A DNA stretch of 50,020 nucleotides, taken from contig ONOQ01000020.1 in the NCBI GenBank assembly GCA_900319485.1, positions 1 to 50,020 on the forward strand. Direction: 5' to 3'. Position 1 is the stretch's first letter, and each line of letters starts with the position of its first letter. Shown here in pieces: positions 5,782-48,469 of this stretch. Made by a program: the position numbers and the translations under genes. Source of the stretch: an uncultured Bacteroidales bacterium (GTDB taxonomy: Bacteria; Bacteroidota; Bacteroidia; Bacteroidales; UBA932). The notes under the pieces are model-generated. The model saw only the letters and a list, made by a program, of their open reading frames with translations. It was not told the DNA's origin and ran no database searches.

Positions 5782-5887
5782 CGTGGAGGTAACTTGCTGA
5801 TACACAGTGTGTTACGTAAAAGAGGGTGCGAAATCTTCCGCACCCTCTTTTGTGTTTCTAATTGATAATCAGCCGATTATCTCCACG
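5782..5887. repeat. PE1: 106 bp palindromic element (REPIN-like)
   Basis: The ends CGTGGAGGTAA (5782-5792) and TTATCTCCACG (5877-5887) are inverted copies of one another. A perfect 13 bp hairpin, AAAAGAGGGTGCG at 5818-5830 and its complement at 5839-5851 with an 8 nt loop, sits exactly at the centre of the element. It begins 90 bp upstream of the minus-strand lipoprotein gene and ends 8 bp before the ssb stop. The stem with flanking A and T runs could act as a terminator in both directions. Same length, ends and stem as PE2 at 7763-7868. Confidence 0.85.
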
Positions 5888-5895
5888 CCTAGAAA

Positions 5896-6573
5896 CTAGA
5901 ACGGAAGGTCGTCAGAAGACTCTGCGGCAGGAATTGGTCCCTGGTAATCAGGAGAGACCTGCGGCTGAGGTGAGGCAGGAGCCGGACCTGCAACGGGAGC
6001 GGCCACAGGGGCTGCTGCAGGCGCAGGGCTGGGGGCCGATACCGGAGCGGGGGCGGCGGGGGCGCCATATCCGGGTGCGGGAGCACCGTAACTGGCGGCT
6101 GGCGCTGCTCCGGCGGGAGCGCCGTAGTTTGGAGCAGGCGCCGCACCGGCAGGTGCACCGTAACCGGAAGCCGGAGCGGAAGAGTAACCGCCCTGGTAAC
6201 CACCCTGCTGCTGTTCCCCTTCAGGGCGCTTGCCAAGAAGTTGGACAGTGTCTCCAACTACCTCGGTGGTGTAGCGCTTTGCGCCGGTCTGGTCTGTCCA
6301 CTGACGGGTGCGGAGTTTGCCCTCGATATAGATCTGACTGCCTTTGCGGATGAATTTTTCTGCGACATCTGCATTGTTACGCCATAGGACGATGTTGTGC
6401 CATTCCGTGTTTTCACGGAGTTCTCCGTTGCGGTCACGGAAGCGCTCCGTGGTGGCAAGACGGAAGGATGCAACCTTTGCGTTTGTGGCTGGATTCTGGG
6501 GATTGGATTCAAGGTAACGTACTTCAGGGTCATTTCCAACGTTACCGATAAGCATTACTTTGTTCAGTGCCAT
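5896..6573 (-). CDS. ssb: Single-stranded DNA-binding protein with long Ala/Pro/Gly tail
   Basis: SSB coats single-stranded DNA in replication, recombination and repair. The N-terminal 110 residues are an OB fold beginning ALNKVMLIGNVGNDPEVR, with RDRNGELRENTEWHNIV, the RKGSQIYIEGKLRTRQW core and YTTEVVGD. The remaining 115 residues are low complexity, built from imperfect repeats of GYGAPAGAAPAP, ending in the acidic tip SSDDLPF that docks partner proteins. At 225 residues it is longer than typical Bacteroidota SSB (about 110-150) because of this tail. It stands alone, without rpsF/rpsR, and its 3' end abuts palindromic element PE1. Confidence 0.95.
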   Translation of the reverse strand: MALNKVMLIGNVGNDPEVRYLESNPQNPATNAKVASFRLATTERFRDRNGELRENTEWHNIVLWRNNADVAEKFIRKGSQIYIEGKLRTRQWTDQTGAKRYTTEVVGDTVQLLGKRPEGEQQQGGYQGGYSSAPASGYGAPAGAAPAPNYGAPAGAAPAASYGAPAPGYGAPAAPAPVSAPSPAPAAAPVAAPVAGPAPASPQPQVSPDYQGPIPAAESSDDLPF

Positions 6574-6620
6574 AGTGATAATAGTTTACTGTTTGCAATT
6601 TACGAATAATTTATGAAAGT

Positions 6621-7466
6621 TTATACCTGTTTTTGAGGAATGTGAAGGAAAGCGGCTATCTGCTTCCCGGGAGCTTCTACCCTTACATTAATATACCGGA
6701 ATGCTTTCCTTTTCTGTTCGGGAGTCATAGAAAAAATTTCGCGGATATCCTTGACGAGTCCTGAAGCAAGGAGCACCCTTTTCATCTTGACATAACAGGC
6801 GTCGGACCGGCCGATGAACTGTTCCTTTATGTCATATTCACTTCCGGTATTGGCGTGAGCGGTTATCAGTTCATTCTCATAAGACTTGAAATGGCTTATG
6901 GCCGCCTTGTGGTCTATGACAGAGTATGTGCTGATTATGTAATCCGTAAGCTGTTCGCACTCCAACTTGCTGGGCAGCGAATCAAACAATCGCCGGAGTA
7001 GCGCTCCGGTGAGGTATCGGCCTTTAGATTGGCGGTCTTTGACAATTTTTAACGCCCTTCTAAGCGGCATGGAAGCCTTCCTCAGGACTATTGTGGGGGA
7101 GAATGGATGGCCGGACACGGCGTATGACGGTTCTCATTTTGCCGGTTTGGACGTCTTTTTGACTGCCCGGCCGAACGGAGTTTTGAACATAGAGCCCTTA
7201 CGGCCGTGGACGGCGTTATACTCACGGACAAAGAGAGAAGTTACAAGATCCAGGCACGCGCCCAGTTGACCGGATTCATTCTCTATTATAGAGTGGTGAA
7301 GATGATCCGGCATCTGGACAAGTTTTAGTGCTGTAACATTATACTTTGGAACAACAGTGCAATAAATGGTAAAGTATAACAAATGATCGGAAACGGTATA
7401 GAATATCACCCCACGGTCCTTGGGCCGCTGGTAACAGTGATAGAATATGCCTTCATTGTCTCTCAC
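6621..7466 (-). pseudogene. Decayed REP-associated tyrosine (Y1) transposase
   Basis: Two consecutive minus-strand frames make one broken gene. The 5' part (7466-7134, GTG start) holds the Y1-transposase core: an HUH-type motif in MPDHLHHSI and a candidate catalytic tyrosine in FVREYNAVHG, then MFKTPFGRAVKK. It stops at TGA after KPAK. The 3' part (about 7118-6621) is the typical C-terminal half of the Bacteroidales versions (SGHPFSPTIVLRKASMPLRRALK..., TGSEYDIKEQFIGRSDACYVKMKR). One missing A in the AAAA run at the junction would restore KMRTVIR. The roughly 25 residues expected between there and SGHPFSP are also absent, suggesting a frameshift plus a deletion of about 80 bp. These enzymes (TnpA-REP, RAYT) act on REP palindromes, and PE1 and PE2 flank this locus. 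Confidence 0.8.
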
Positions 7467-7762
7467 GGTACAAAGGAAAGTATTATTATCCGTTTCATCA
7501 CTCTGGGAAACGATTAATTAAACCCCATACCACAGGTGCCTGAGAGGCTGATTTTTGAAGATGTTTGCAGAATCACTGTGCCGGGACAACCACCCTGGTC
7601 ACATCGATACTACCCACAACCGCCCTTGCGCCTGATTTTCTGAAACGGCGGCTGAAACGGATATTGAAACGGCTATTGACAGACAGTGGACCTGGTCCAG
7701 TACATTTTTGGACTTTGTCAGGAGCATTTTGTGGACCTGGTCCAGCGCTTTTTCAAATAGCC

Positions 7763-7868
7763 CGTGGAGGTAAAACGCTGACTGTGAGGTGTTTATGCAA
7801 AAGAGGGTGCGATAAATGCCGCACCCTCTTTTATATAAGTTGCTTATAATCAATGATTTATCTCCACG
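7763..7868. repeat. PE2: 106 bp palindromic element (REPIN-like)
   Basis: Ends CGTGGAGGTAA and TTATCTCCACG are identical to those of PE1. The central stem AAAAGAGGGTGCG (7799-7811) pairs perfectly with 7820-7832 around an 8 nt loop and is identical to the PE1 stem, while the sequence between ends and stem has diverged. The stem centre coincides with the element centre (7815.5). A TGGACCWGGTCCA palindrome lies 18 bp before and another 14 bp after the element. Confidence 0.85.
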
Positions 7869-7882
7869 CGACCATCGGTGGC

Positions 7883-7973
7883 TGGACCAGGTCCACGGCC
7901 TACCACGGTATTGTCGATGGCGGGACCAGGTCCACGGCCTACCACGGCATCGTCGATGGCTGGACCAGGTCCA
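7883..7973. repeat. About 40 bp tandem repeat built on the 13 bp palindrome
   Basis: Three units start at 7883, 7922 and 7961. Each has the core GGACCAGGTCCACGGCC; the first two continue with TACCACGG and TATTGTCGAT or CATCGTCGAT, while the third continues into a degenerating run. The units are too similar to one another and too few to be a CRISPR array. Each contains one copy of TGGACCAGGTCCA, the middle one with its first T changed to G. Confidence 0.8.
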
Positions 7974-8052
7974 CGGCCCGACGCGGCACACCACAGGGCC
8001 GACACGGCACAACGCGGTCCACTACGGGCCCACCACGGCCCGGAACGCGGCT

Positions 8053-8526
8053 CTAGTGCAGAAGATCTATGGCCCCGAAGACGCCGAGGGAGGCGGCAAG
8101 CATTATGGCGCCGGCTAGAAGAACCCCAAGGAGTACGTACAGGACGCTTTTCTTGAAGTCCATATCAAGGATGCTGGCGGCAAGGGTGCCGGTCCAGGCA
8201 CCTGTGCCGGGGAGGGGAATGCCCACAAACAGCAGCAGGGCTACATACAGCCCGGCGCCTGCCTTGGCTTCCAGTTTACGGCCGCCCTTCTCTCCTTTTT
8301 CAAGGCACCAGCGGCAGAAGCCGCCTATCACTTTCTTGTCCTTGCCCCAGTCCAGGATGCGGCGGGCAAAAAGGAAGATAAACGGCACGGGAAGCATATT
8401 TCCCAGGACAGAAACTATGATGGAAGGCACTATGGGAAGCCCAAAGCCCACGGCATAAGGAATGGCGCCGCGAAGTTCTATGAGCGGCACCATTGATATA
8501 AGGAAAACAATAAGATATTTCTTCAT
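8053..8526 (-). CDS. COG2426 small membrane protein (putative small multidrug export family)
   Basis: A 157-residue integral membrane protein with about four hydrophobic spans. The family signatures are SMVPLIELRGAIPYAVG near the N-terminus and VGIPLPGTGAWTGTLAA in the second half. The family is annotated as small multidrug export, but its substrate is not established to my knowledge. Its ATG shares one base with the stop of the upstream PfkB kinase (TGATG), so the two are translationally coupled, though no functional link is evident. The gene ends at the edge of the repeat-filled gap. Confidence 0.85.
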   Translation of the reverse strand: MKKYLIVFLISMVPLIELRGAIPYAVGFGLPIVPSIIVSVLGNMLPVPFIFLFARRILDWGKDKKVIGGFCRWCLEKGEKGGRKLEAKAGAGLYVALLLFVGIPLPGTGAWTGTLAASILDMDFKKSVLYVLLGVLLAGAIMLAASLGVFGAIDLLH

Positions 8527-9542
8527 CAGTTGAGGGGCGGAAGGGGATCATTGGAATTTGCTGCTATGAGGGCGCGGATCTCGTCCTTCGCTTCTCTCCA
8601 GCGGGGGATGTCTATCTTGGTGCCGATTACTTCCACCACCTTTGCGGCAATGATGGAGCCTATCTGGCCGCACACAAGGAGCGGCATTCCCAGCGAGTGG
8701 GCATATAGGAAACCGGCCGCATAGGTGTCTCCTGCACCAGTGGCGTCAATGGGCGTTGCGGGCCAGGGTTCTATGAAGTAGTAGTCATCTCCGGACTTTA
8801 CCATAGACCCGGCCTTGCCAACCTTCACAACAGCTATCTTGCAGTGACGCGCAAGTTCATCAATTGCATCACGGGGCTCCATCTTGGTGAACGCCTTGGC
8901 TTCGGACTCATTTGCAAACACAATGTCCACGTAGTTTTCTACCAGATTGTGGAAAAATGCATCATTGGATTCAACCACATTGTAGGAAGCCATATCTATG
9001 GAAATGATACATCCCGCTGCCTTTGCAAGACGCGCGGCCTTTGAGATGAGTTCCTGGTTCTGGACCAGGTAGCCCTCAATGTGGAAGTAGTCATAGCCTT
9101 CAAAAAATGATGCATCCAGGTCCTCAGGCCCCAGTTCAAGGGTGGCGCCCATATAATCGGCAAAAGTGCGCTCTGCGTTGGCGCCGGTGATAAAGACCAT
9201 GCATCGGCCCGAAGATTTCTCCGAGTACAGCATCTGGGCCTTCACTCCGTACTGCTCCATAGTGCTCTTGAAGAGGTTTCCAAGGTCATCGTTGCCGATT
9301 TTCCCAAGGAAGCCGGACTCCATCCCGAAGATTGCCGTGCAGGTGATGGTGTTTGCCGCGCTGCCGCCGGGAACATACTTTACGCCGTACTGCTTGAGCT
9401 CTTCCCATATACGGTCTCCGGTTTCCATATCCACGTGCTGCATACTGCCAAGCGGGAGGTGGAACTTCTTGAGAAGGGTGTCGTCCGGGAGGACGGCAAG
9501 GATGTCTGTAAGGGCGTTGCCTATGCCTAAGATAGATTTCAT
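8526..9542 (-). CDS. PfkB-family carbohydrate/nucleoside kinase
   Basis: A 338-residue ribokinase-fold enzyme that transfers phosphate from ATP to a sugar or nucleoside hydroxyl. Seen: the N-terminal GIGNALTDILA, the glycine-rich VPGGSAANTI substrate loop, and the C-terminal catalytic signature DATGAGDTYAAGFLYA with the base Asp and anion hole. The layout resembles the adenosine-kinase-like group common in Bacteroidota, but substrate cannot be decided by reading. A -7 box TAATTTTG on this strand lies at 9561-9568, so the leader is short. COG2426 follows in the same operon. Confidence 0.88.
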   Translation of the reverse strand: MKSILGIGNALTDILAVLPDDTLLKKFHLPLGSMQHVDMETGDRIWEELKQYGVKYVPGGSAANTITCTAIFGMESGFLGKIGNDDLGNLFKSTMEQYGVKAQMLYSEKSSGRCMVFITGANAERTFADYMGATLELGPEDLDASFFEGYDYFHIEGYLVQNQELISKAARLAKAAGCIISIDMASYNVVESNDAFFHNLVENYVDIVFANESEAKAFTKMEPRDAIDELARHCKIAVVKVGKAGSMVKSGDDYYFIEPWPATPIDATGAGDTYAAGFLYAHSLGMPLLVCGQIGSIIAAKVVEVIGTKIDIPRWREAKDEIRALIAANSNDPLPPLN

Positions 9543-9591
9543 AAAAGGTCAGATTACCTACAAAATTAACCATAATTTGCGGATTTTCCAT

Positions 9592-9599
9592 TACCTTTG
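9592..9599 (+). promoter_or_regulatory. -7 box TACCTTTG just upstream of the flippase-like gene
   Basis: TACCTTTG ends 8 nt before the ATG at 9608. If transcription starts about 6 nt after the box, as is usual in this phylum, the mRNA would have almost no leader. This argues for the ATG at 9608 and against the in-frame GTG at 9599, which overlaps the box itself. Confidence 0.55.
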
Positions 9600-9607
9600 T
9601 GTGGCCG

Positions 9608-10594: not shown

Positions 10595-11328
10595 AACGCT
10601 TTGCGCTTATCGGCCATCCTGTAGCGGGCTCCCTCAGTCCCCGCCTTTTCACCGCGGCTTATGAGGGCCGATATCCCTACGACCTCATTGACGCCCCATT
10701 CGATGAGGCCTGGGCGCGTTTTTTAGCCGATTATCACGGCATCAACGTGACCGCTCCCTACAAGCAGGACGCCTTCAGGGCGGTGGATGTCCTTTCCGAC
10801 GGAGCAAGGGAGTGCGGCGCAGTGAATCTTGTGGTAAAGGCCCCGGACGGACTTCTTCACGGCTACAACACGGATGTTGACGGCGTTGTGGGGGCTGTCC
10901 GTGAAACCGGCTTTCAGCCTTCTGATACGCTTGTCATCGGCGCCGGCGGGGCCGCGATGGCTGCAGTCGTAGGAGCGAAAATCCTTGGCTCCAAAACCAT
11001 CACCATAGCCAACCGCACATACGAAAAGGCAGCTGCTCTTGCAGCCGCCCATTCGTGTGAGGCCGTTCCGCTTGATGCTATCGGCACGCTTTCTCCGGAC
11101 CTTGTCATCTACACCATTCCCGGAGGAGTCCCCGTTGTGCCGGGAATGCCGCTTGGCGGCGCCGTAATCCTTGAGGCAGAGTACAAGCGCCCGTCACTTT
11201 CATCGGCCCCGTGCCGCAAATATATCAGCGGCCTTCGGTGGATCCTCCACCAGGCGGTGGCCGGTTACAGCCTCTTTACAGGAGAGGCCCCCGATCTGGA
11301 GGCCCTTTCCCGTTCAATTATTTGTTAA
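10591..11328 (+). CDS. aroE: Shikimate dehydrogenase
   Basis: A 245-residue enzyme that reduces 3-dehydroshikimate to shikimate with NADPH in aromatic amino acid synthesis. Seen: ALIGHPVAGSLSP (shikimate-binding serines), the catalytic lysine in GINVTAPYKQDAF, NTDVDGVVGAV, and the nucleotide-binding VIGAGGAAMAAVVGAK followed by NRTYEKA. It is on the short side for the family (usually 250-280). The ATG at 10591 overlaps the upstream stop (ATGA). It converges with and overlaps trpB2 by 11 bp, so two aromatic-amino-acid genes face each other tail to tail. Confidence 0.94.
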   Translation: MKRFALIGHPVAGSLSPRLFTAAYEGRYPYDLIDAPFDEAWARFLADYHGINVTAPYKQDAFRAVDVLSDGARECGAVNLVVKAPDGLLHGYNTDVDGVVGAVRETGFQPSDTLVIGAGGAAMAAVVGAKILGSKTITIANRTYEKAAALAAAHSCEAVPLDAIGTLSPDLVIYTIPGGVPVVPGMPLGGAVILEAEYKRPSLSSAPCRKYISGLRWILHQAVAGYSLFTGEAPDLEALSRSIIC

Positions 11329-14449: not shown

Positions 14450-14462
14450 TGGACCCGGTCCA
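14450..14462. repeat. 13 bp palindrome TGGACCCGGTCCA
   Basis: This copy of the dispersed palindrome TGGACCNGGTCCA has C as the central base. It lies 11 bp after the pyrH stop and 16 bp before element PE3. The other copies are at 7687, 7732, 7883, 7922 (one mismatch), 7961, 38532 and 48339. Confidence 0.7.
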
Positions 14463-14478: not shown

Positions 14479-14586
14479 CGTTTTTGTTAACTGCTTGATT
14501 ATCGGCCGATTATAACATTTACTCCCGCCCAAACGGACGGGAGTAAATTTCATAAGTATCAAATATTCAAGTGTTTAACTAAAACG
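14479..14586. repeat. PE3: 108 bp palindromic element, variant ends
   Basis: The ends CGTTTTTGTTAA (14479-14490) and TTAACTAAAACG (14575-14586) are inverted copies, with TTTT where the other elements have GGAG. The central stem ATTTACTCCCG (14517-14527) pairs perfectly with 14538-14548 around 10 nt, centred exactly on the element. The arms contain CTTGATTATC, like the conserved block of the other copies. It lies between the converging 3' ends of pyrH and a DUF4252 gene, where the stem could terminate both transcripts. Confidence 0.72.
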
Positions 14587-24304: not shown

Positions 24305-24355
24305 ACTCACTTGCTGGTTCTCCCACTTGCTGGTTCTCCCACTTGCTGGTTCTCC
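24305..24355. repeat. Threefold 17 bp tandem repeat next to PE4
   Basis: The unit CACTTGCTGGTTCTCCC is repeated about three times between the M23 stop and PE4. A diverged copy (GGTTCTCCCCTTGC on the opposite strand) also flanks PE5 near 25895-25920, so the homology of the PE4/PE5 inverted pair extends beyond the GTGGAG ends on this side. Confidence 0.75.
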
Positions 24356-24361
24356 CCTTGC

Positions 24362-24469
24362 GGTGGAGCTTAACACGCTCATTACTAGTCGTTTACAGAA
24401 GTTTCTACCAGAAAAAGTTCTGGTAGAAACCCATGTAACCAACTGTGTTTCAATGAATTGGCTTCCACC
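24362..24469. repeat. PE4: 108 bp palindromic element
   Basis: Ends GGTGGAGCTTAA and AATTGGCTTCCACC are related inverted repeats. The central stem GTTTCTACCAGAA (24401-24413) pairs perfectly with 24418-24430 around a 4 nt loop, centred on the element. It lies between the converging ends of the second M23 gene and miaA, finishing 6 bp before the miaA stop. It matches PE5 in reverse orientation at about 86% by hand alignment. Confidence 0.85.
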
Positions 24470-25786: not shown

Positions 25787-25894
25787 GGTGGAGGCTAATT
25801 CATTGAAACACAGTTAGTTACACGGGTTTCTACTAGAACTTTTTCTGGTAGAAACTTTTGTAAATAGCTGATAATAAGCGTGTTGAGTTCCACT
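25787..25894. repeat. PE5: 108 bp palindromic element, inverted relative to PE4
   Basis: Ends GGTGGAGGCTAA and TTGAGTTCCACT. The stem GTTTCTACTAGAA (25826-25838) pairs with 25843-25855 with one mismatch, exactly at the centre. It lies between smpB and dus. Read on the minus strand it aligns with PE4 along its full 108 bp with about 15 differences. Confidence 0.85.
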
Positions 25895-25956
25895 GCAAGG
25901 GGAGAACCGGTAAGTGGGAGGGACGTGCTGGTACCTGCAGGAACGGAAAAAATGAG

Positions 25957-25968: not shown

Positions 25969-27000
25969 ATGAAAATAGGGAATGTGGATCTTGGGGAGAG
26001 GCCGGTGACTCTGGCGCCGATGGAGGATGTGACGGACGCATCCTTCAGGATACTGTGCCGTGAAGCCGGGGCCGCAATGGTCACAACGGAGTTTGTGAGC
26101 AGTGACGGCCTGGTCCGTGACGTCTCAAAGACAATAGCAAAGATGCACACCCTTGAGGAGGAGGCTCCCGTGGCGGTCCAGATCTACGGAAACATCCCGG
26201 AGGCAATGGTGGATGCCGCAAAGATGGCGGAGAGGGCAAAGGAACTTGCCGGAGGCCACGGGGCCGATATTATAGACATCAACTTCGGCTGCCCCGTCTC
26301 AAAGATTGCCGGCCGCGGCGCCGGAAGCGGAATGATGAGGGAACCGGACAAGATGGTGGCAATCACAAAGGCCATCGTAGAGGCAGTGGGGAAGCCCGTC
26401 ACCGTGAAAACCCGCCTTGGCTGGGACGACTCCTCAAAAATCATAGTAAACCTTGCCGAGCGCCTTCAGGACACGGGAATATCGGCCCTTACAATCCACG
26501 GCCGCACCCGCTGTCAGATGTATAAGGGTGAGGCCGATTGGACTCTCATCGGGGAGGTTAAGAACAACCCCCGGATGCATATCCCTATCATCGGGAACGG
26601 AGACATAAACACCGCCGCGAAGGCAAAGGAAGCCTTTGACAGATACGGCGTAGACGGCATCATGGTGGGCCGGGCAAGTTTCGGCCACCCCTGGATCTTT
26701 ACGGAAATCCGCCACCTGCTGGACACCGGGGAGGAACTCCCGCCTATGAGCGTAAAGGACCGCGTAACCCTTGCCAAACGCCATTTCCAACTCTCCCTGG
26801 ACCTCAAGGGGCCCGTCACGGGAGTATATGAGATGCGCCGCCACCTCAGTTGCTACTTCAAGGGCCTCAGGGATTTCAAGGAAACCCGCATAAAGCTGGT
26901 CACCTCCAAGGACCCGGAAGAGATAGTGCGCACCCTCGATTACGTTGCGCAGCGCTGGGGCACCGAAGCCCCCGAGCCGGAAGGTGTTTACGGACTCTAG
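25969..27000 (+). CDS. dus: tRNA-dihydrouridine synthase (DusB-like)
   Basis: A 343-residue flavin enzyme that reduces uridines in the tRNA D-loop. Seen: LAPMEDVTDASFR, the active-site cysteine in INFGCPVSKIAGRGAGSGMM, PVTVKTRLGW, the FMN-site segment IHGRTRCQMYKG, GNGDI and GVDGIMVGRASFGHPWIF. Length is typical. It has its own promoter directly ahead of the ATG and is convergent with the S51/ATP-grasp fusion gene, 28 bp between stops. Confidence 0.94.
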   Translation: MKIGNVDLGERPVTLAPMEDVTDASFRILCREAGAAMVTTEFVSSDGLVRDVSKTIAKMHTLEEEAPVAVQIYGNIPEAMVDAAKMAERAKELAGGHGADIIDINFGCPVSKIAGRGAGSGMMREPDKMVAITKAIVEAVGKPVTVKTRLGWDDSSKIIVNLAERLQDTGISALTIHGRTRCQMYKGEADWTLIGEVKNNPRMHIPIIGNGDINTAAKAKEAFDRYGVDGIMVGRASFGHPWIFTEIRHLLDTGEELPPMSVKDRVTLAKRHFQLSLDLKGPVTGVYEMRRHLSCYFKGLRDFKETRIKLVTSKDPEEIVRTLDYVAQRWGTEAPEPEGVYGL

Positions 27001-27028
27001 TCCGGATTTGTCACCTGGCCGAAACGGA

Positions 27029-28951
27029 CTATTCCGTAGTGAACTTGAAGAAGGCTTCAATGTCGGCCTTTTTCTCCAGGCGCACGATGTAGCAGGTGTT
27101 GCCAAGGTCGTCGGAGAGGGCGTCCGGGACGCGGGCGGCCATGCGGACGTCGCTGCCGTAGCGCGCCATGATATCCTCGTGGGAGTGCTTGTACGCGTGA
27201 TTGTCGCGGCGGCCGGCATAACCGATGTAGCAGCTGTCGCCAAGGGGCTTGCGGGCCTCGTCAAAGGCCACCATGTCGGCCCAAATCTGATAGACGTCCG
27301 TGTTGTGGGCATAGTTCATCATGTCAGGGGTGTAGCCTCCCGGCGGGCGCATGTTAACCTCAAGGCCCACATAGTCCCCCTTCTTGCCAAGGCCTTCACG
27401 GTCACGGTCCAGCTGGAAGAATTCAAGGTGCACAAAGCGGCTCTTGATGCCGAATGCGTTTACCGTGCGGCGGCCAATCTCGGAGAGCTTTGCGGGAACC
27501 GTCTTGTTGGTCCAGTAGCAGCAGTCAAGGTTATTGTGAACTATCTCCATGATGGGCGTGGGGAACACGGTGTTGTTTTCAAACACCGGCTCTCCTTTTG
27601 AGTTGAAAATGGCGTCGTAGCTAACCAGGAGGCCGGTTATGAACTCCTCAATCACATAGAAGCCCATGTCCTGCGCATGCTGCTCCAGCCAAGCCGAAAG
27701 GTCTTCGGCACAGGTGATCTTGGTGGTGCCGCCGGCGCCCATGCCGTTGTCCGGCTTTGCAATCACGGGGTAGCCGGTCTTTTTCACGAAGGCCTTGATT
27801 TTTGCAGCGCCTTCGGCCCCCTTTATCTGACGCGCGGTAGGGATGCCGCCAAGGGCGTAGTATTTTTTCATCTCGCTCTTGTTCTTGATGGCGGCAATGC
27901 GGTCTGTCTTAATCCCTGTGGTTACGTTGAAATCTGTCCTGAGGCGGGCGTCCTGCTCAAGCCAGTACTCGTTGTTGGACTCTATCCAGTCTATCTTACC
28001 GTACTTGTGGGCGAACCAGGCCACGGCGCGGTACATTTCGGAGTAGTCTTCAAGGTTCTGCACACGGTAATAGTCCGTGATGCTCTGCCTGAGTTCCCAG
28101 GAGAGGTTTTCATAGGGAGTGTCGGCAATTGCAAGGACATTGACGCCGTTTGCCTTTGCCCCGGCGCAGAAGTGCCAGTAAGTGTCCGGGAAATGGGGGG
28201 ATATGAATACGAGGTTCATAAAGGAGTATGTTTTGTTTTCATCGGAAACGCGGCGCATGGCTCCGCGGGTTATTTCGTAGGCCTCTCCGTAAAGGGTGCT
28301 TCGGCCGTTTTCCACTTTAACGTAACCGCCGTCACGGAAGGTGTAGAATCGGTGGCCCCAGCTGTCCGGGAAGGCTATGTCTTCAAAAAGCCGAAGGCCG
28401 TCCACGGTGGCCCATCGCACCTGCTCAAAGTGCGGGATAAGCTGGATGTCAGTAAGGCCAAGGCCTTCCAGCCAGCGGTTGTAGCCGGGGTCCGTGGCTT
28501 CTCCGGGTAGTTCCGGGTGGGAATACACCCTTCCGGCGCAGTTCATGCTTCCGGCGCTGCAGCCCATGACCACTCCGTCAAACCCTTCCAGAAGCTTTTT
28601 AAGGCCGATTTCATGGATAAAACGGTTCTGGGTGGGGACGTGACCGCCGCAAAGGACAACCCAGTGGGCCCGGGGAACCAGTTCCGGCGCCTTGGCGGCA
28701 TTGCTGCGGTCCAGCATCACTATTGACTCTGTCTCAATGCCGGAGCGGTGAATGCAAAGGCTCATGCCTTTCTCAACGGAATCCGTGAAGCCTTTGTCGT
28801 CCGGGGCGGCGCTCACAAGCAGCACTCGCGGCTTTCGGCCCGGACCGGCAACAGCGCGCAGCGACGCCTTGACGCTGGCAAGGAAGCCGTTGTCTTCAGT
28901 GAAATGATCTTCCCCAAAACGTGTGGGGCTGCCGGTAAGATACAGAATCAT
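27029..28951 (-). CDS. Fusion of S51 peptidase-like domain with ATP-grasp ligase
   Basis: A 640-residue two-domain protein. Residues 1 to about 235 form a class I glutamine-amidotransferase-like fold of the S51 type (dipeptidase E/cyanophycinase), with WVVLCGGHVPTQ and the nucleophile elbow VMGCSAGSMN (Ser132). From about 243 on it is an ATP-grasp carboxylate-amine ligase: LVFISPHFPDTYWHF, VIAKPDNGMGAGGTTKI (ATP loop), EEFITGLLVSYD and the metal-binding VGLEVNMRPPGGYTPDMM. One half is of a peptide-hydrolysing type and the other of a peptide-bond-forming type, so it might make and trim or recycle a small peptide; the substrate is unknown. It overlaps the upstream lpxK stop (ATGA) and is the last gene of pfkA-lpxK-fusion. 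Confidence 0.82.
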   Translation of the reverse strand: MILYLTGSPTRFGEDHFTEDNGFLASVKASLRAVAGPGRKPRVLLVSAAPDDKGFTDSVEKGMSLCIHRSGIETESIVMLDRSNAAKAPELVPRAHWVVLCGGHVPTQNRFIHEIGLKKLLEGFDGVVMGCSAGSMNCAGRVYSHPELPGEATDPGYNRWLEGLGLTDIQLIPHFEQVRWATVDGLRLFEDIAFPDSWGHRFYTFRDGGYVKVENGRSTLYGEAYEITRGAMRRVSDENKTYSFMNLVFISPHFPDTYWHFCAGAKANGVNVLAIADTPYENLSWELRQSITDYYRVQNLEDYSEMYRAVAWFAHKYGKIDWIESNNEYWLEQDARLRTDFNVTTGIKTDRIAAIKNKSEMKKYYALGGIPTARQIKGAEGAAKIKAFVKKTGYPVIAKPDNGMGAGGTTKITCAEDLSAWLEQHAQDMGFYVIEEFITGLLVSYDAIFNSKGEPVFENNTVFPTPIMEIVHNNLDCCYWTNKTVPAKLSEIGRRTVNAFGIKSRFVHLEFFQLDRDREGLGKKGDYVGLEVNMRPPGGYTPDMMNYAHNTDVYQIWADMVAFDEARKPLGDSCYIGYAGRRDNHAYKHSHEDIMARYGSDVRMAARVPDALSDDLGNTCYIVRLEKKADIEAFFKFTTE

Positions 28952-29946
28952 ACCTTGTCCAGTATCTCCACAAACGCTTTCTCATCTTCCTCCGAGACAA
29001 AAGCGGCCTCTATGGGGAGGTAGAAAAGGCGCTGCCTGAGGGAATCCGGCACAACCTTGACCTCGCGGAGGCGCTGGGCGTCTTTTTCCGTGGTTATGAG
29101 GCAAGCCGTGGGAGCAGCCTTGACTGCGGCGGCCATGGCGCGGATATCGGCCTTCCCAAAGCGGTGATGATCCGGGTAAGAGAGGCGCTTCACTATCTTG
29201 TAAGTATCTGAGAGATAGCTTCTGAGAGGAGCGTCGTTGGCTATTCCGGAAACAAGGATGGTCTTGTTGGAGTAGGTGTAACGGGCATCGGCTTCCGGGA
29301 AAACGGGCTCCGGAGGGAGGTAGCGGATGCTTGTGAAAAAGAGCTTCTGCCCAGGCCTCAGGCCCAGTTTTCGGCCGAACTCCTGGCGGGACCAGCCGTC
29401 AAGTTCCGGGGGGCACTTTGTGACTATCACGACATCGGCCTTGAGAATGCGGGAGGGAAGGTCACGGAGACGTCCCCAGGGGAGAAGCTTGTCTTCCCAG
29501 ACGGGCCTTCCGTAATCCACCAGTACTATGCTGAGGCTGGGGCAGAGCCTTCGATACTGGAAGGCGTCGTCAAGGACTATTATGTCGGCGTCAAGCTTGC
29601 GGCAACCCTCCACGCGGTCTTTGTCTACTGCAACGGTTACTCCGTGGAATTTGCGGGCAATCTGCAGGGGTTCATCCCCGCAGAAGGAGGCCGATGAATC
29701 CGGCTTCACAATCTGAAAGCCGCGGGATTTGCGCTTATACCCTCTTGAAAGCACGGCAACAGGCCTGTAGCCCCATTTGTCGCTGACACGAAGGTAGCGG
29801 AGGAGCATCTCCACATGAGGGGTTTTGCCGGTGCCGCCGGCCGTGATGTTGCCCACGCAGACGGTGGGGACATCGGCCTTGAAACTCTTTTTCCAGCCCT
29901 TATTGTAGGCAAGGTGCCTAAGCCTCAGCCAAAGACCGTAAATCAT
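28948..29946 (-). CDS. lpxK: Tetraacyldisaccharide 4'-kinase
   Basis: A 332-residue membrane-associated kinase that adds the 4'-phosphate of lipid A. Seen: the N-terminal hydrophobic start ([16 protein letters not shown]), the P-loop VGNITAGGTGKTPHVE, VAVLSRGYKRKSRG, DDAFQYRRL and TTEKDAQRL. Length is typical. Its ATG shares a base with the pfkA stop (TAATG) and its stop overlaps the fusion gene start by 4 bp. It shows that the organism is Gram-negative and makes lipid A, like the LptF part encoded elsewhere in the window. Confidence 0.94.
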   Translation of the reverse strand: MIYGLWLRLRHLAYNKGWKKSFKADVPTVCVGNITAGGTGKTPHVEMLLRYLRVSDKWGYRPVAVLSRGYKRKSRGFQIVKPDSSASFCGDEPLQIARKFHGVTVAVDKDRVEGCRKLDADIIVLDDAFQYRRLCPSLSIVLVDYGRPVWEDKLLPWGRLRDLPSRILKADVVIVTKCPPELDGWSRQEFGRKLGLRPGQKLFFTSIRYLPPEPVFPEADARYTYSNKTILVSGIANDAPLRSYLSDTYKIVKRLSYPDHHRFGKADIRAMAAAVKAAPTACLITTEKDAQRLREVKVVPDSLRQRLFYLPIEAAFVSEEDEKAFVEILDKV

Positions 29947-30935
29947 TACATCGAGAGCACGTTGAGAACTGCGATGAGTTCTTTGTTAATGGGTTTGTCC
30001 ATCTTGATGGCGCGGGAGATGGGGACGTACACAATTTCGTCGTTCTTTATGCCCACCATGATGTTGCGCTGGCCTTCCAGCAGAGCCTCAATGGCGGCAT
30101 AACCCATACGGGATGCCAGGATACGGTCATAGGCCGAAGGTGTGCCACCCCTCTGTAGGTGACCGAGGATGGTGACGCGGGCGTCAAACTGAGGGTACTC
30201 CTTCTTGATTCTTTCGGCATAATAAAAAGCGCCGCCCACGCCGTTCTTCTGGGCTTCGGAGACCAGCACTATGGCGCTGTTCTTGGATTTGCGCTTGCCT
30301 CTTTCGATGAATTCGGCCAGCTGGTCTACGTCCGTGGAGTCCTCGGGGATAATTGCGGCCTCTGCACCGGAAGCGATTGCGCTGTTCTGGGCAAGGAAAC
30401 CGGCATCACGGCCCATTACCTCTATGAAGAAGATGCGGTCGTGGGAATTAGCGGTGTCGCGGATTTTGTCAACGCATTCAACTATGGTGTTGAGGGCGCT
30501 GTCGTAGCCAATTGTGGAGTCCGTGCCATAAAGGTCGTTGTCTATGGTGCCGGGAAGGCCGATAATGGGGATGTCATACTCCCTCGCGAAGAGCTGGGCA
30601 CCTGTAAGTGAGCCATTTCCGCCAATTACAATCAGGGCGTCAATTCCCGCTTCCACCATATTGTCATAAGCGGTCTTTCGGCCTTCGGGGGTCATGAAAG
30701 CGCCACAGCGTGCGGTTTTGAGGATGGTGCCGCCTCTTTGGATAGTATTGGATACCGACGATGAGGTAAATTTCACGAACTCCTTCTCTATGAGTCCCTG
30801 ATAGCCCCTCATGATTCCAACCACGTTCATGTCGTGGTAGCGGGCGCAGCGGGTGACGGCCCTGATGGCTGCGTTCATTCCGGGGGCGTCTCCGCCTGAG
30901 GTAAGTACGCCGATAGTGTTGATTTTGCGTTCCAT
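29946..30935 (-). CDS. pfkA: 6-phosphofructokinase
   Basis: A 329-residue glycolytic enzyme that phosphorylates fructose 6-phosphate. Seen: [28 protein letters not shown], the catalytic [31 protein letters not shown] and [15 protein letters not shown]. The Gly after GGN suggests ATP rather than pyrophosphate as donor; the Asn replaces the usual Asp at that loop. It is the first gene of the operon; a -7 box TATTTTTG on this strand (30959-30966) gives a leader of about 18 nt. Confidence 0.95.
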
Positions 30936-30945
30936 TCGATTAATT

Positions 30946-31137
30946 GTGACTTATCCTGCAAAAATACACAAAAAACCGCAAAAAAGCGACACCATCTGGA
31001 GCCTGGGCGGCAAGGCCCTTGGAGCAGCGGATTCCGACACCTCCGTGAGCTTCAAGCAGCGTGCGGAAGCCTACCTTCTTTCAATAGGAGTATCCCAGAA
31101 AGACATTGACGACCTCCGCACCCTGATGCTTGAATAG
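30946..31137 (+). CDS. Possible small protein of 63 residues
   Basis: An open frame divergent from pfkA. From a GTG at 30946 it encodes a basic start ([14 protein letters not shown]) followed by a well-behaved sequence, [18 protein letters not shown] and [27 protein letters not shown], with the codon usage of neighbouring genes and an amphipathic helix at the end. I recognise no family. The start codon is uncertain and would lie within the pfkA promoter region. It could also be the C-terminal remnant of a lost gene. Confidence 0.4.
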
Positions 31138-38312: not shown

Positions 38313-38567
38313 CTAATTCAACAGCCCCCGATTCATTACTTCGGCGATGAGGGCGGTGGAGGTGTGGACATCCAGTTTGGCCAGAAGGCGCTTACGGTAC
38401 CATACAATGGTTTCATAACTCACGCCCATTTCGTCGGCAATCATCTTGGTGCTCTTGTCTTTCATGAGAAGGCGGACCACTTCCTTTTCCCGTTTTGTAA
38501 GTTTGACATCCTGGCTTGTCCGGCCTGCAGCTGGACCAGGTCCAACAACCTTCTCGGTACTGGCCAT
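38313..38567 (-). CDS. Small LuxR-type HTH protein, possibly a truncated regulator
   Basis: From an ATG at 38567 this is an 84-residue protein whose last 65 residues are a complete LuxR/NarL DNA-binding domain (LTKREKEVVRLLMKDKSTKMIADEMGVSYETIVWYRKRLLAKLDVHTSTALI). The first 20 residues include GPGPAA, encoded by a copy of the TGGACCWGGTCCA palindrome, and the region upstream is a 52 bp tandem repeat. A receiver or sensor domain normally precedes this HTH, so the gene looks truncated by repeat expansion. It could also be a stand-alone LuxR protein. The true start is unclear because the frame stays open upstream. Confidence 0.55.
   Translation of the reverse strand: MASTEKVVGPGPAAGRTSQDVKLTKREKEVVRLLMKDKSTKMIADEMGVSYETIVWYRKRLLAKLDVHTSTALIAEVMNRGLLN
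38532..38544. repeat. 13 bp palindrome TGGACCAGGTCCA
   Basis: This copy lies at the start of the LuxR HTH frame, just before the conserved domain, where it encodes the residues GPGP. It is the one clear case of the 13-mer inside a likely coding region in this window. Confidence 0.7.
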
Positions 38568-40301: not shown

Positions 40302-40302
40302 T

Positions 40303-41721: not shown

Positions 41722-41723
41722 CC

Positions 41724-44370: not shown

Positions 44371-44371
44371 A

Positions 44372-45214
44372 ATGCCCACTCTGAAGGAAATAAAGGGCCG
44401 GATAGGGTCTGTGAAGAGTACGCTGAAGATAACATCGGCTATGAAACTGGTGTCATCGGCGAAACTCCGTAAGGCGCAGAACGCAATTGCGGCAATGCGG
44501 CCCTATGAGGAGGAACTGAGACGGATGCTGGAGATGGCTTCGGGTGCGGGTAATGTGCCTGAAAATGTCACATCACCTGAAAATGTCCAGTTACCTGCAG
44601 TAATTGTGGCAATAGCGTCCAACTCTTCCCTTTGCGGCGGATTCAATGCCAATGTGATTGCAAAGGTGAGGGCCGTGAGAAAGCCCGGTGACGTTGTGTA
44701 TTCAATTGGCCGCAAGATGGCCGATGCAATGGCACGTGACGGGTTCCATTCACCTTCGGACTACTCCGCTCTCTCCGAGCACCCGGTTTATGCGGATGCC
44801 GCGGCCATTGTGGAGAAACTCGCAAAGGACTTTTATGAAGGCAGGATAAGCGGCGTGACGCTTGTGTACACGCACTTTGTATCCACGGCCAAGCAGGTTC
44901 CGGTGGCGGAACGCCTGCTGCCGGTGGATGAGACCCGGGGTCAAGTCGGGGGTGACGAAACCGATGCCATCCTGGAGCCATCGGCCCGGGAACTTCTGGA
45001 GGCGCTGATGCCCCGGACACTGAAACTGAAACTGTACGCTGCGCTCCTTGACAGCGCGGCGGCGGAGCACGCGGCCCGCACAATTGCCATGCAAACCGCA
45101 ACGGACAATGCAGAGAACCTGCTTTCTGAACTGACTCTTCAGTACAACAAGAGTCGTCAGCAGAAGATTACATCGGAGATCCTGGACCTCGCGGGAGGCC
45201 AGGCCGCAGAATAA
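44372..45214 (+). CDS. atpG: F1Fo ATP synthase subunit gamma
   Basis: A 280-residue central shaft. The N-terminal helix (PTLKEIKGRIGSVKSTLKITSAMKLVSSAKLRKAQ) and C-terminal helix (RTIAMQTATDNAENLLSELTLQYNKSRQQKITSEI) are conserved and form the coiled coil. In the middle, around residues 188-196 (ETRGQVGGDE), a repeat of the fmt type (44933-44957) is embedded in the frame, and it gives an irregular loop in the least conserved part. Last gene of the operon. Confidence 0.96.
   Translation: MPTLKEIKGRIGSVKSTLKITSAMKLVSSAKLRKAQNAIAAMRPYEEELRRMLEMASGAGNVPENVTSPENVQLPAVIVAIASNSSLCGGFNANVIAKVRAVRKPGDVVYSIGRKMADAMARDGFHSPSDYSALSEHPVYADAAAIVEKLAKDFYEGRISGVTLVYTHFVSTAKQVPVAERLLPVDETRGQVGGDETDAILEPSARELLEALMPRTLKLKLYAALLDSAAAEHAARTIAMQTATDNAENLLSELTLQYNKSRQQKITSEILDLAGGQAAE
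44933..44957. repeat. Small palindromic repeat inside atpG
   Basis: On the minus strand the sequence reads CGTCACCCCCGACTTGACCC then CGGGT, matching the repeat in fmt (17521-17545, CGTCATCCCCGACCTGATC then GGGGAT) except for transitions and one extra base. It lies in frame in a variable part of the gamma subunit. Confidence 0.65.
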
Positions 45215-45234
45215 GACTAGACTAACCACATAAA

Positions 45235-46167
45235 ATGAAAAACATTCTTGAAATTCTGAAAACCTGGAAATTCTGGAAGGAACTGTTCATTATGACTGCC
45301 GGCATGACCATAGCGGCAGCGGCCGTTTACTACTTCCTTATGCCCTCCAAACTGGTTGTGGGCTCAATTACGGGTCTTTCAATCGTGATTGCAAAACTGC
45401 TGAACATTGCAGGTATCGGCATAAAGGTGTCGCATGTGATTGTTATCATCAACGCCATCCTGCTGGTGCTGGCCTGGATCCTTATCGGCAAGGAGTTCGG
45501 CGCCAAGACGGTTTATACGGCACTTATCCTTGGTCCGTTGGTGGATTTCTGGGAGAAGGTGCTGCCCATCGACCGCCTTCTGGAGCCGGGGCAGATGTCC
45601 CTTATGAACGACCCCTGGTTCGACCTTATCTGCTTTGTGCTCATCCTAAGCGCTTCCCAGACCATCCTTTTCAATATCAATGCGTCAACCGGAGGGCTGG
45701 ATATCCTGGCAAAGATTGTGAACAAGTACCTGCACATAGACATCGGCACGTCCGTTACCGTTGCAGGAGCAATCATCTGCTGCACTGCTTTTGCCATCAA
45801 CCCGTTCAGGCTGGTTGTAATCGGCCTTATAGGAACCTGGATCAACGGCCTTGCACTGGATTATTTCACCGCCGGCCTCAACCGCCGAAAGAGGGTGTGC
45901 ATAATCTCGTCGCAGTACGAGCGCCTGCGTAAGTACATCATCGAGGACCTTGAGCGCGGCTGCTCCCTGTACAACGTTACGGGCGGTTACAACGGCCATC
46001 AGAATGTTGAGATTCAGTCACTTCTTACGCAGGATGAATTTGCCCATCTTATGGATTATATGAAGACAAATGACATCCACGGATTCATCACCGCAGGCAA
46101 CGTGAGCGAAATTTACGGTGACTGGCACAAAAAAACTCGTAAAAAGAAGAGTTTGGCACAGAATTAG
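45235..46167 (+). CDS. YitT-family membrane protein (DUF161 + DUF2179)
   Basis: A 310-residue protein with about five to six membrane spans (ITAGMTIAAAAVYYFLMP, GSITGLSIVIAKLL, VIIINAILLVLAWILIG and a later STGGLDILAKIVNKYLH motif) and a C-terminal DUF2179 domain (RRKRVCIISSQYERLRKYIIEDLERGCSLYNVTGGY). The family is widespread and poorly understood. It follows atpG by 20 bp on the same strand and may be cotranscribed, but a functional link is not implied. Confidence 0.9.
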   Translation: MKNILEILKTWKFWKELFIMTAGMTIAAAAVYYFLMPSKLVVGSITGLSIVIAKLLNIAGIGIKVSHVIVIINAILLVLAWILIGKEFGAKTVYTALILGPLVDFWEKVLPIDRLLEPGQMSLMNDPWFDLICFVLILSASQTILFNINASTGGLDILAKIVNKYLHIDIGTSVTVAGAIICCTAFAINPFRLVVIGLIGTWINGLALDYFTAGLNRRKRVCIISSQYERLRKYIIEDLERGCSLYNVTGGYNGHQNVEIQSLLTQDEFAHLMDYMKTNDIHGFITAGNVSEIYGDWHKKTRKKKSLAQN

Positions 46168-46209
46168 ATATAAGTGGTATCAGACATAAATATTGATACC
46201 TTACCATAC

Positions 46210-46252
46210 ACCCGCCGCCAATTGTGAAATTCGCGTGCGGGTTTCTTTTATT
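46210..46252 (+). terminator. Terminator after yitT
   Basis: CCCGC (46211-46215) and GCGGG (46237-46241) form a stem with additional inner pairing, followed by TTTCTTTTATTT. A second small hairpin GGTATC/GATACC (46176-46200) lies directly before it. It ends where the convergent MFS gene begins its last codons. Confidence 0.6.
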
Positions 46253-47600
46253 TCCGCAGATATTTCCACCCTATGACCGGGAGGGTGAACGCCAGAAGGC
46301 AAGCCGCTATCCAGAAGATGGATACAGGCGTGAAGTTGTATGCCCCGGCAGTAGTGTTCCCCTCGATGAGGAAGCCGCTCACCACGCTCTGAAGGCCCGC
46401 AGCGGCGTAGCTGGAGATACCAACTATGCCAAGGGCTGCACCCGTCGCTTTGCGGGGCACGAAGTCCAGCGCCATAAGCCCGGCCACAATGCAGAACACC
46501 ACGCTGAAGGCAAAACTGAACAGGGCCACAAAAGCCATATTGCCCCAGAAGCCGCCGCCAAGGAACAGGAACGCTGCCAGCGAACACACGGCCAGAATTC
46601 CGGAAACCACCACGGGCTTTACGCGATTGCCTTTGAGGAGGATGTCTGAGATCCAGCCGGCGGCAAGGTTACCCGCCACGCCAAAGATTTCGGCAAGGCC
46701 GATCACCTGCGTTGCCCCCTCAAGGGAGAACCCCTTCTGCTTCTGGAGAAACAGTACACCCCAGTCGGAGACTGCATGCTGAGTTACGTACAAAAATGCC
46801 GTGGAGATGGCTATGACCCAGATTCCGGGGTGCTTGAACACCCACTTTTGGAGTTCCCGTGTGGGCTTTTTATCAAGCGGCCTGGTCTCTTCTCCTGAGA
46901 GTTCCTGGACGGAAGGGAGACCCTGGCTTTCAGGGGTATCGGCAATGAAGATGAGGGACACGGCAAGGCCGATAACCCCCGCTACCGCCGCAGCCAGAAA
47001 TCCCCATTGCCACCCTGCGGCGGCAACGATAAATCCCGTCATCATCATTGAGACGGCTTTTCCAAGCTGAGGGGTGGAGGAGAAGATGCTGTAGTACCTG
47101 CCCCTAAGGGAAAGCGGGAACCAGCGGGAAAGGCTTATGGTTCCGGGAGGAGATCCCATAGACTGCATCCAGCCGTTGATGCCCCAAAGAAGCGTGAATG
47201 TGACCAGCATCACAATTGAGCCAAAGCCAAGAGGCCCCTGAAGAAGGCCCATCAGCCCAAGGATCAGATTGACTGCAGCCGATATCCCGATGCCCACCGC
47301 CATAAACCTGCGGATGTTGCAATAATCCGCTATGAAGCCGTTGAGGAACTTACCTACCGCATAGACAAAGTAGAAGGCGGAACCTATGATGCCAAGTTGC
47401 CCGGCCGTAAGAACGCCTCCGTCAATGAGTGGCTGCTTCACTACGCCAAGGGTCATCCTGCATACATAATATAATGTATAGGCCACGGTAACGCCCCAGA
47501 AAGTGCGGCTTCGAAGACGCTTATAAGTGGCGTCCACCTCTCCTGACGGCACTTTTGCCGCCGACGGCTTACTTATGCGGAAGTGGCTGTAGAGGGACAT
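46248..47600 (-). CDS. MFS transporter of the organophosphate:phosphate antiporter type
   Basis: A 450-residue, 12-span transporter resembling GlpT/UhpT/UhpC. Seen: YTLYYVCRMTLGVVKQPLI in the first span, AVGKFLNGFIADYCNIRRFMAVG in the loop 2-3 region, and WGINGWMQSMGSPPGTISLSRWFPLSLRGRYYSI. These proteins exchange sugar phosphates or glycerol 3-phosphate for inorganic phosphate, or act as receptors. The ATG at 47600 lies 2 bp after the stop of a HAD phosphatase gene, so uptake and dephosphorylation of a phosphorylated compound may be coupled. Substrate unknown. Confidence 0.88.
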   Translation of the reverse strand: MSLYSHFRISKPSAAKVPSGEVDATYKRLRSRTFWGVTVAYTLYYVCRMTLGVVKQPLIDGGVLTAGQLGIIGSAFYFVYAVGKFLNGFIADYCNIRRFMAVGIGISAAVNLILGLMGLLQGPLGFGSIVMLVTFTLLWGINGWMQSMGSPPGTISLSRWFPLSLRGRYYSIFSSTPQLGKAVSMMMTGFIVAAAGWQWGFLAAAVAGVIGLAVSLIFIADTPESQGLPSVQELSGEETRPLDKKPTRELQKWVFKHPGIWVIAISTAFLYVTQHAVSDWGVLFLQKQKGFSLEGATQVIGLAEIFGVAGNLAAGWISDILLKGNRVKPVVVSGILAVCSLAAFLFLGGGFWGNMAFVALFSFAFSVVFCIVAGLMALDFVPRKATGAALGIVGISSYAAAGLQSVVSGFLIEGNTTAGAYNFTPVSIFWIAACLLAFTLPVIGWKYLRK

Positions 47601-47602
47601 TT

Positions 47603-48217
47603 CTAACAGTCTGAAAGAAGAAGGCCAAGGTCCGTTCCCGGATTATAGAGGCGGGCATCCAGGCCGACCGCCCTTGCTCCGTCTACATTGGCCTTGTTGT
47701 CATCTATGAAAAGTATCTCCTGAGGCGGCTGTCCTATCCTCTGGATCACGTAGTTATAGAACTCCGGGGCCGGTTTCATCATCTTTAGGTCGGACGATAT
47801 GAACTGGTCCCTGAAAGTGGCCTCCGGATCAATTCCGTTGTCTTTCAGCACCCTCAGGCAGTGCCTCATGGAAATTGGATTGTTGTTGGAAAGGAGGTAG
47901 AGCGGGTATTTCCCCTTGAGGTCAAGGACGGCCTTGACTGTACGGGGATCCATCTTCTTGTCAAGAAGTTCCCCCATAGCGTACTCCACGTCCTGAGGCT
48001 TTGTTCCGGGGCGGGACTCTGCAAGGACAAGTTCCTTGAAGTGCTGCTCACTTAGGCGGCCGCCCTCCAGTTCCCCGTAGATACCCTTCTGATGATAAGG
48101 ATCAAGCAGTTGCGTAATCCTCTCAAAACCAAGACCGGAGCGGAATGCTTCGATGCACCTGCTCATGTTGAGACCGATCAGGACCCCACCTATGTCAAAT
48201 ACTATTGCTTTAGGCAT
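47603..48217 (-). CDS. HAD-superfamily hydrolase, subfamily IA
   Basis: A 204-residue phosphatase-like enzyme with the nucleophile motif VFDIGGVLIG (the second Asp of the usual DxDGV replaced, as in the YihX-like group), YLLSNNNPIS as motif II, a Lys in SSDLKMMKPAPEFYNYV, and FIDDNKANVDGARAVGL as motif IV. It probably acts on a sugar phosphate. A -7 box TACCTTTG on this strand is at 48229-48236, 11 nt before the ATG. The MFS gene follows within 2 bp. Confidence 0.88.
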   Translation of the reverse strand: MPKAIVFDIGGVLIGLNMSRCIEAFRSGLGFERITQLLDPYHQKGIYGELEGGRLSEQHFKELVLAESRPGTKPQDVEYAMGELLDKKMDPRTVKAVLDLKGKYPLYLLSNNNPISMRHCLRVLKDNGIDPEATFRDQFISSDLKMMKPAPEFYNYVIQRIGQPPQEILFIDDNKANVDGARAVGLDARLYNPGTDLGLLLSDC

Positions 48218-48338
48218 AATTCAGTGCACAAAGGTAGTCATTTGCCACGGCATTCGCAAAAGTCCTTTCCGTGTTGACACAAAAACCCCATTCTGGGCAT
48301 TCTGGTTGTCAACACGGCCGCAGCATGGCGGCTGTGTG

Positions 48339-48351
48339 TGGACCAGGTCCA
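48339..48351. repeat. 13 bp palindrome TGGACCAGGTCCA
   Basis: The last of the eight copies in the window. It lies 11 bp before PE6, the same side-by-side arrangement as at PE2 and PE3. Confidence 0.75.
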
Positions 48352-48362
48352 AGGGTAGAATC

Positions 48363-48469
48363 GGTGGAGGTTAAGTGGCTTACACACAGTAAGTTATGGG
48401 ATTATTTGGGATTACAGTAATCCCAAATAATCATGTAAGTAACTGATAGTGAGTTAGTTGGGCTCCACT
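48363..48469. repeat. PE6: 107 bp palindromic element
   Basis: Ends GGTGGAGGTTAA and TTGGGCTCCACT. The central stem GATTATTTGGGATTA (48400-48414) pairs perfectly over 15 bp with 48418-48432 around a 3 nt loop, exactly at the element centre (48416). The arms share TTACACACAGTAAGTTA-like and AACTGATAGTGAGTTAG-like blocks with PE4 and PE5, but the stem sequence is completely different. It lies between the HAD promoter and the lgt stop. Confidence 0.83.

Follow-up and report, generated by a model that had tools for sequence, protein, structure and literature searches.

The 50,020-nucleotide stretch analyzed here (the window), from contig ONOQ01000020.1 of an uncultured Bacteroidales bacterium, carries six intergenic palindromes, E1 to E6. 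They are members of an extensive family of short elements, mobile in appearance, in one Bacteroidales genus that accompanies a single-strand DNA transposase of the RAYT type (REP-associated tyrosine transposase, REP being a repetitive extragenic palindrome). We consider it likely that these palindromes are non-autonomous elements resembling REPINs (inverted REP pairs folding into one hairpin) and that they are dispersed by long RAYTs specific to the genus. All six elements proposed by the sequence-only reading were recovered, with the following layout (no strand is assigned to the elements themselves):

5782..5887, E1: 106 bp, END CGTGGAG, STEM AAAAGAGGGTGCG, flavour F1
7763..7868, E2: 106 bp, END CGTGGAG, STEM AAAAGAGGGTGCG, flavour F1
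14479..14586, E3: 108 bp, END CGTTTTT, STEM ATTTACTCCCG, flavour F5
24354..24361, plus strand: one-sided TAIL CCCCTTGC of E4, the end of a GGTTCTCC.. tandem
24362..24469, E4: 108 bp, END GGTGGAG, STEM GTTTCTACCAGAA, flavour F2a
25787..25894, E5: 108 bp, flavour F2a, inverted partner of E4
25895..25902, minus strand: one-sided TAIL GCAAGGGG of E5, the reverse complement of CCCCTTGC
48363..48469, E6: 107 bp, END GGTGGAG, STEM ATTATTTGGGATTAC, flavour F2b
48470..48482, minus strand: TAIL ACATCGGCATTAC of E6

As that reading had also stated, every element is located at the 3′ end of one or more genes, judged by the open reading frames (ORFs) of the window. The folding of all six beats 200 dinucleotide shuffles, with z values of -5.8 to -10.1 under RNA parameters. 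E4 and E5 form an inverted pair whose complementarity reaches 87% across 140 nt, of which 26 nt belong to the outer flank. A search of Rfam gave no match in the window at the gathering score.

Size and anatomy of the palindrome family

A covariance model, R1, was built from 19 copies, since a DNA-only search with E1 as the query recovered just part of the family. At an E value of at most 2e-4 on the better strand, the 2.5-Mb genome holds at least 82 distinct copies, a lower bound because scoring covered 150 of the 797 candidates from the first look; four further copies adjoining the RAYT loci L017, L018, and L019 lie outside this set. Their length is nearly invariant, with 46 copies of 108 bp, 30 of 106 bp, and 6 of other lengths (76/82 being 106 or 108 bp). 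Elements were detected in 31 of the 41 genus genomes searched, the source genome included (R1, E ≤ 0.001), and in all seven close relatives, with 137 to 148 matches among the best 150 of each; such counts per genome cover the best 150 or 96 scored matches on both strands and are to be read as minimum values. None was found in a further 148 genomes drawn from the order, including one of the same genus and one of the same family, when 26 candidates per genome were scored with stricter filters (R1, E ≤ 1e-5). No description of this family was found in the open-access literature searched.

Counted from the center, 76 copies show three layers in register: a paired but variable STEM, an ARM that is conserved and shows no additional pairing, and a paired, variable END. 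The STEM (positions 4 to 15) differs in sequence among copies, pairing at 798/912 positions (88%) compared to 334.5 (37%) in shuffled halves, and the END (positions 48 to 53) pairs at 392/456 compared to 235.6, values that are partly built in because both R1 and the rigid scanner used below score base pairs. The ARM (positions 16 to 47) contains the conserved blocks TAA, CTGA, CAG, and TTA separated by variable gaps, and its conserved positions pair at 736/988 compared to 740.7 after shuffling, i.e., no more than the consensus predicts. Only background is seen beyond position 55, and the two main lengths, 106 and 108 bp, correspond to an END of 8 and 9 nt, respectively. The constant inner arm reads TAA-N4-CTGATTATCAG-N4-TTAC, in which CTGATTATCAG is itself a dyad. 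The sequence-only reading had placed the constancy in the ends; instead, the END varies along with the STEM, and it is the inner arm that stays constant. Many copies and empty sites in sister genomes, which that reading had named as support for a mobile family, were found, as were variable yet paired stems; constant ends were not.

Two further observations concern the arm. An arm-like sequence, TTAACACGCTGAAAATCAGCAAGTTACGCAA, lies directly 3′ of a tRNA-Phe gene (351-424) in locus L015 (351-460). The free arm positions of the source genome's copies pair less often than in shuffles (255/912 versus 309.7; 0/5000 shuffles, 76 copies), and selection for unpaired positions was considered; it was dropped because 87 RAYT-side elements show no such deficit (341/1044 versus 332.9).

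Assigned by both halves, the main stem types of the genome are GTTTCTACCAGAA (13 copies), AAAAGAGGGTG (11), GTCGGGTGCACC (10), and TTTGGGATTAC (10). In 15/82 copies, one half fell into another type than its partner; some of these are clear hybrids (C3:1054 and C35:16137), the rest being merely weak matches. Flavours with a GGTGGAG END carry a one-sided TAIL adjoining it: of the 21 copies with a CTACCAG-type stem, 18 have the CCCCTTGC tail alone and on one side only, 9 of the 14 with a TTGGGA-type stem have the GCCGATGC tail in the same manner, and a tail is absent from 44 of the 47 remaining copies. The GT[AG]G head expected of REPs is not universal, since GTGG is found in the ENDs of F1 and F2, which make up only part of the family; flavours F3 to F5 and many RAYT-side elements have CTGGC, CGTTTTT, CGTTGAATG, CTGGTC, or other ENDs instead.

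The genomic context of these copies raises the question of transcription termination. Among the 77 of 82 copies with clear neighbors under a crude ORF rule, 32 lie between convergent, 37 between co-directional, and 8 between divergent genes, and the excess of convergent over divergent contexts (P = 0.0002), together with T runs seen by eye after F1 stems on both strands, is what one would expect if the palindromes were bidirectional terminators or mRNA-end hairpins maintained by the host, with the stem under selection for termination and the likeness of the arms incidental. We regard this explanation as unlikely, given that conservation or pairing continues outside the hairpin, through arms and ENDs, up to position 53, that T runs are missing by eye from most F2 stems, and that elements adjoin RAYT genes and are missing from the corresponding sites of sister genomes. 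The two roles, transposition and termination, may both hold.

RAYT genes and the elements beside them

A search of the genome revealed five Y1_Tnp (PF01797) genes above the cutoff, four of which were also retrieved by hmmscan. Three of them (L017, L018, and L019) encode similar RAYTs of 310 to 338 residues, with elements overlapping the 3′ end of the gene; the stem beside L017 is that of E4, which is also that of the element adjoining RAYT L085, the stem beside L019 is of the ACCCCTATG type, and the one beside L018 is of the GCGGTGCACC type. The long RAYTs comprise approximately 305 residues with a C-terminal extension, as seen in an alignment of 29 of 80 named loci (L256 was left out because of stops in its translation). 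A PDB sequence search with the L017 protein returned no match at an E value of ≤10. All of the 80 best named relatives are titled Bacteroidales or Bacteroidia, and many come from rumen or other ruminant gut samples. A fourth RAYT of the same family lies, in decayed form, within the window:

6621..7466, minus strand: decayed RAYT between E1 and E2

This gene retains the HuH motif DHLH, contains an in-frame stop, and has lost the stretch with the tyrosine motif; a profile of the three long RAYTs matches the window at 6630-7127 and 7143-7454, and an SSB gene separates the remnant from E1. At the same site, the sister genome G180 has approximately 72 bp more and an open frame of 296 codons with no stop (L252, judged by its model scores to be the same record).

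Using the same three-RAYT profile, strong relatives (≥190 bits) were found in 25 of the 41 genus genomes searched, including the source genome, and elements (at least five matches) occur in 22 of these 25 genomes compared to 4 of the 16 others (Fisher P = 0.00012). We then considered the neighborhood of 27 of the 45 strong RAYT matches. The motif [DN]HxH is present at 26/27 loci and Y-x-x-N-N at 27/27, in agreement with a Y1 HuH enzyme. An element lies beside 26/27 (R1, E ≤ 1; within 300 bp on the 3′ side or 400 bp on the 5′ side), often at most ~60 bp from the end of the RAYT match; the matches at L096 and L101 are weak, and L102 has none. A rigid scanner, which reached up to 1 kb upstream of the RAYT and whose threshold was the best score in the reversed window (hence zero false matches there by construction), placed elements at 21/27 of these loci and at 66/80 named loci, a set that has several genes in common with the first. 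No element was seen at any of five loci with RAYTs of the weak type.

To relate stems to enzymes, near-identical RAYTs were removed, reducing 87 loci to 80. Across this nonredundant set, STEM distance tracks RAYT distance (rho = 0.208; 0/500 permutations), with values of 0.31 for RAYTs more than 65% identical and 0.69 for those less than 50% identical, while ARM distance does not follow the RAYT (104/500 permutations). When elements flank the RAYT on both sides (n = 55), the STEM finds its one best match in the partner at 40 loci, the END at 19, and the conserved ARM at 4. Within the source genome, cognate RAYTs are flanked by copies of their own type, with the exception of F5, for which no RAYT was seen; that of F1 is broken. 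The swapped stems noticed in the sequence-only reading are real, and a likely explanation is that stem types follow RAYT lineages and that, as described below, orthologous sites differ in stem with one arm kept.

The two remaining Y1_Tnp genes, L020 and L021, are of a different type (approximately 300 residues), and no element lies beside either (0/2, this genome). A run of TGGACC..GGTCCA palindromes is located upstream of L021 (L021 922-956), and these two genes perhaps represent a second REP system within the same genome. A TGGACC(T/A)GGTCCA palindrome also recurs beside elements in the window (7688-7972, 14451-14461, 38533-38543, and 48340-48350).

Site histories and gene order in sister genomes

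Seven close relatives (G180, G184, G265, G223, G221, G125, and G382) were compared around the window elements. G382 has no element at the sites of E4 and E5, and the two genes at the E5 site almost abut. The source genome has an empty site of its own:

46248..46250, no strand assigned: empty site in the source genome, occupied by an element-bearing cluster in five sisters (G180, G223, G125, G184, and G221)

In G265, the cluster at window position 46249 is present without tail and element, exact to a base or two. The one filled/empty pair examined in detail (G180/G265) shows no visible target duplication, and the enzyme linked to the elements is of the Y1 HuH kind, two points that speak against the palindromes being ordinary miniature inverted-repeat transposable elements of a DDE-type insertion sequence. 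Such elements would likewise be short, intergenic, and multicopy with terminal inverted repeats, but we judge this origin highly improbable. The same intergenic clusters of sister genomes also contain a third palindromic repeat, GCCGTGTTGACA...TGTCAACACGGC (L182 4180-4680 and L168 320-860).

Occupied sites differ in what they hold. At the E6 site, the source genome and G180 have the TTTGGGATTAC stem and G184, G265, G223, and G221 have TCTACCAGAA, with a nearly identical left flank. G180 was compared with these four, the source copy being left out because its odd length (107 bp) creates an artifact. The left arms agree at 8 to 9 of 12 free positions, against 4.15 for random arms (P = 0.03 for at least 8 and 0.009 for at least 9), and the right arms agree at 5/12; as the four genomes are nearly identical, this counts as one comparison rather than four. 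For the E4-E5 pair, which bounds the IPPT block, genomes with different stems agree at 7 to 10 of 12 positions in the inner arms and at 5 to 7 of 12 in the outer arms. We read the E6 and IPPT sites as cases in which stem, outer arm, and tail were exchanged within a resident copy, although separate insertions may instead have hit one site independently. At E1, the genomes with another stem (G223, G221, and G125) match the rest at only 3 to 6 of 12 positions in either arm; neither arm is common to both groups, and thus the whole element differs.

Gene order between elements varies as well. The SSB-RAYT block between E1 and E2 has one orientation in the source genome, G180, G184, G265, and G382 and the opposite one in G223, G221, and G125 (5 versus 3 of 8 genomes, G125 being seen at one junction only); two elements are present in 8/8 genomes, and the stem pair differs between the orientation groups. 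The IPPT block is inverted in 4/8 genomes, with elements at both ends in G180, G265, and G221 and none found in G223, and its inner flanks travel with it up to the element border. After short or element-only BLAST pieces were dropped, an element was found at 24/37 rearranged junctions compared to 13/36 collinear alignment gaps (P = 0.019), an imperfect control since inserts are overrepresented in gaps and the sister genomes have part of their history in common. Another block, 27030-30970, is inverted and joined to ~38776 in G265, G223, G221, and G382, and the source genome has no element at the break (27000-27030 and 30971).

Opposite orientations, flanks that move up to the element border, and the junction excess could all mean that the palindromes serve a site-specific recombinase, as in invertase or attC systems, that flips or shuffles gene blocks. 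This seems quite improbable to us: 13/37 rearranged junctions have no element, including both IPPT junctions of G223 and the breakpoint at 27,000-27,030; the breakpoints of block 46249-48280 lie at TGGACC(T/A)GGTCCA dyads inside elements; and homologous recombination of inverted copies suffices to explain the flips, with no dedicated enzyme needed. Such recombination is the simplest cause of the inversions, and from these arrangements we infer a putative causal role for the elements.

Proposed mechanism and relation to known systems

Several observations weigh against dispersal of the elements by the long RAYTs. Elements occur without such a RAYT in G001 (7 matches), G011 (12), G030 (93), and G039 (19), and the RAYT occurs in G015, G036, and G020, which give 0, 0, and 3 element matches. 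The END follows the RAYT weakly (32/500 permutations reach the value, 80 loci), no RAYT with an F5 stem was seen in the source genome, and the F1 RAYT in the window is broken. The cutoff of the NCBIfam model REP_Tyr_transpos was not reached (best score, 42.4 of 80 bits), the pairing of STEM and END is in part a product of the search, as noted above, and the empty sites could be losses. G030, with its 93 matches and no RAYT of the long type at E ≤ 1e-4, perhaps holds orphaned copies or has an unrecognized enzyme.

Dispersal by the RAYTs is nonetheless the reading that we favor, and it would work as follows. Replication would expose the element as a hairpin of single-stranded DNA; the RAYT would recognize the STEM and cut at or near the END, in the manner of TnpA_REP and IS200/IS605, with a hairpin and a nearby guide. 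Both the movement and the cutting are inferred. The constant ARM may be a second, family-wide contact or may supply the homology that lets one flavour overwrite another, and such overwriting would account for swapped yet perfect stems. Lying mostly at gene 3′ ends, the palindromes may also terminate transcription, and inverted pairs could act as recombination sites flipping the genes in between. More tentatively, and with some doubt, the arms might be a landing platform on which a new RAYT lineage overwrites the resident stems, outer arm and tail included, such that sites stay fixed, flavours turn over, and inverted pairs of the same flavour repeatedly flip blocks.

Open questions in the field include the way in which a RAYT selects its REPs and the origin of new REP types. 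This one genus supplies RAYT-stem pairs by the dozen, all set in the same scaffold, and because only the stem clearly follows the enzyme, a recognition code could be read by comparing these pairs. The family also suggests a route from one perfect hairpin to another, instead of drift, and ties such palindromes to local changes of gene order.

The following comparisons draw on passages of three papers. Like the REPIN-RAYT system of Bertels and Rainey (2011; PMC3116915), the present family consists of inverted halves that fold into one long hairpin, is dispersed in many copies in extragenic DNA, and includes several flavours, each with its own RAYT, and compensatory changes in the hairpin. The passages used describe REPIN ends (16-mers overlapping the REP) as highly conserved within each RAYT-linked group and the spacer as mainly requiring length and pairing (PMC3116915). 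Here, in contrast, the central stem follows the RAYT, the arms are common to all flavours, the length is nearly fixed at 106 to 108 bp, and a common GTAG/GTGG head is missing. The REPIN-like design with a transposase acting in trans, as the sequence-only reading had it, is well supported by flanked RAYTs, co-occurrence across the genus, and empty sites; constant ends and a GT[AG]G head in all members are not supported.

Subclass 2.6 of TnpA_REP, or RAYT group 5, is similar in its occurrence in Bacteroidetes, its RAYTs flanked by structures other than GT[AG]G, and copies elsewhere in the genome (PMC6006769). In the passages considered, it is credited with “atypical secondary structures,” the signature NH[LIV]H, WQ, and YIH[QN]NP, and a median of 179 residues, a signature that the RAYTs described here do not share, with their [DN]HxH, YxxNN, ~305 residues, and C-terminal extension. 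The nearest tabulated Y motif is that of subclass 2.4 (YIxNNP, 194 residues; PMC6006769). TIRtrons, whose TIRYT genes are mostly of subclass 2.1 (PMC6006769), resemble the present loci in that long inverted repeats with no relation to GTAG REPs enclose RAYT-like genes; some of these repeats form families and some are self-complementary, but the anatomy of constant arms and exchangeable stems is not described in the passages of PMC3733652 on which we rely. The gene context of the elements resembles that reported there for REPs, which allows for a side role in ending transcripts. The system works like REPIN-RAYT and is best filed as a REPIN variant with constant arms, a RAYT-specific stem, and a long RAYT, a variant rather than a plain REPIN because the GT[AG]G head is not found in all members.

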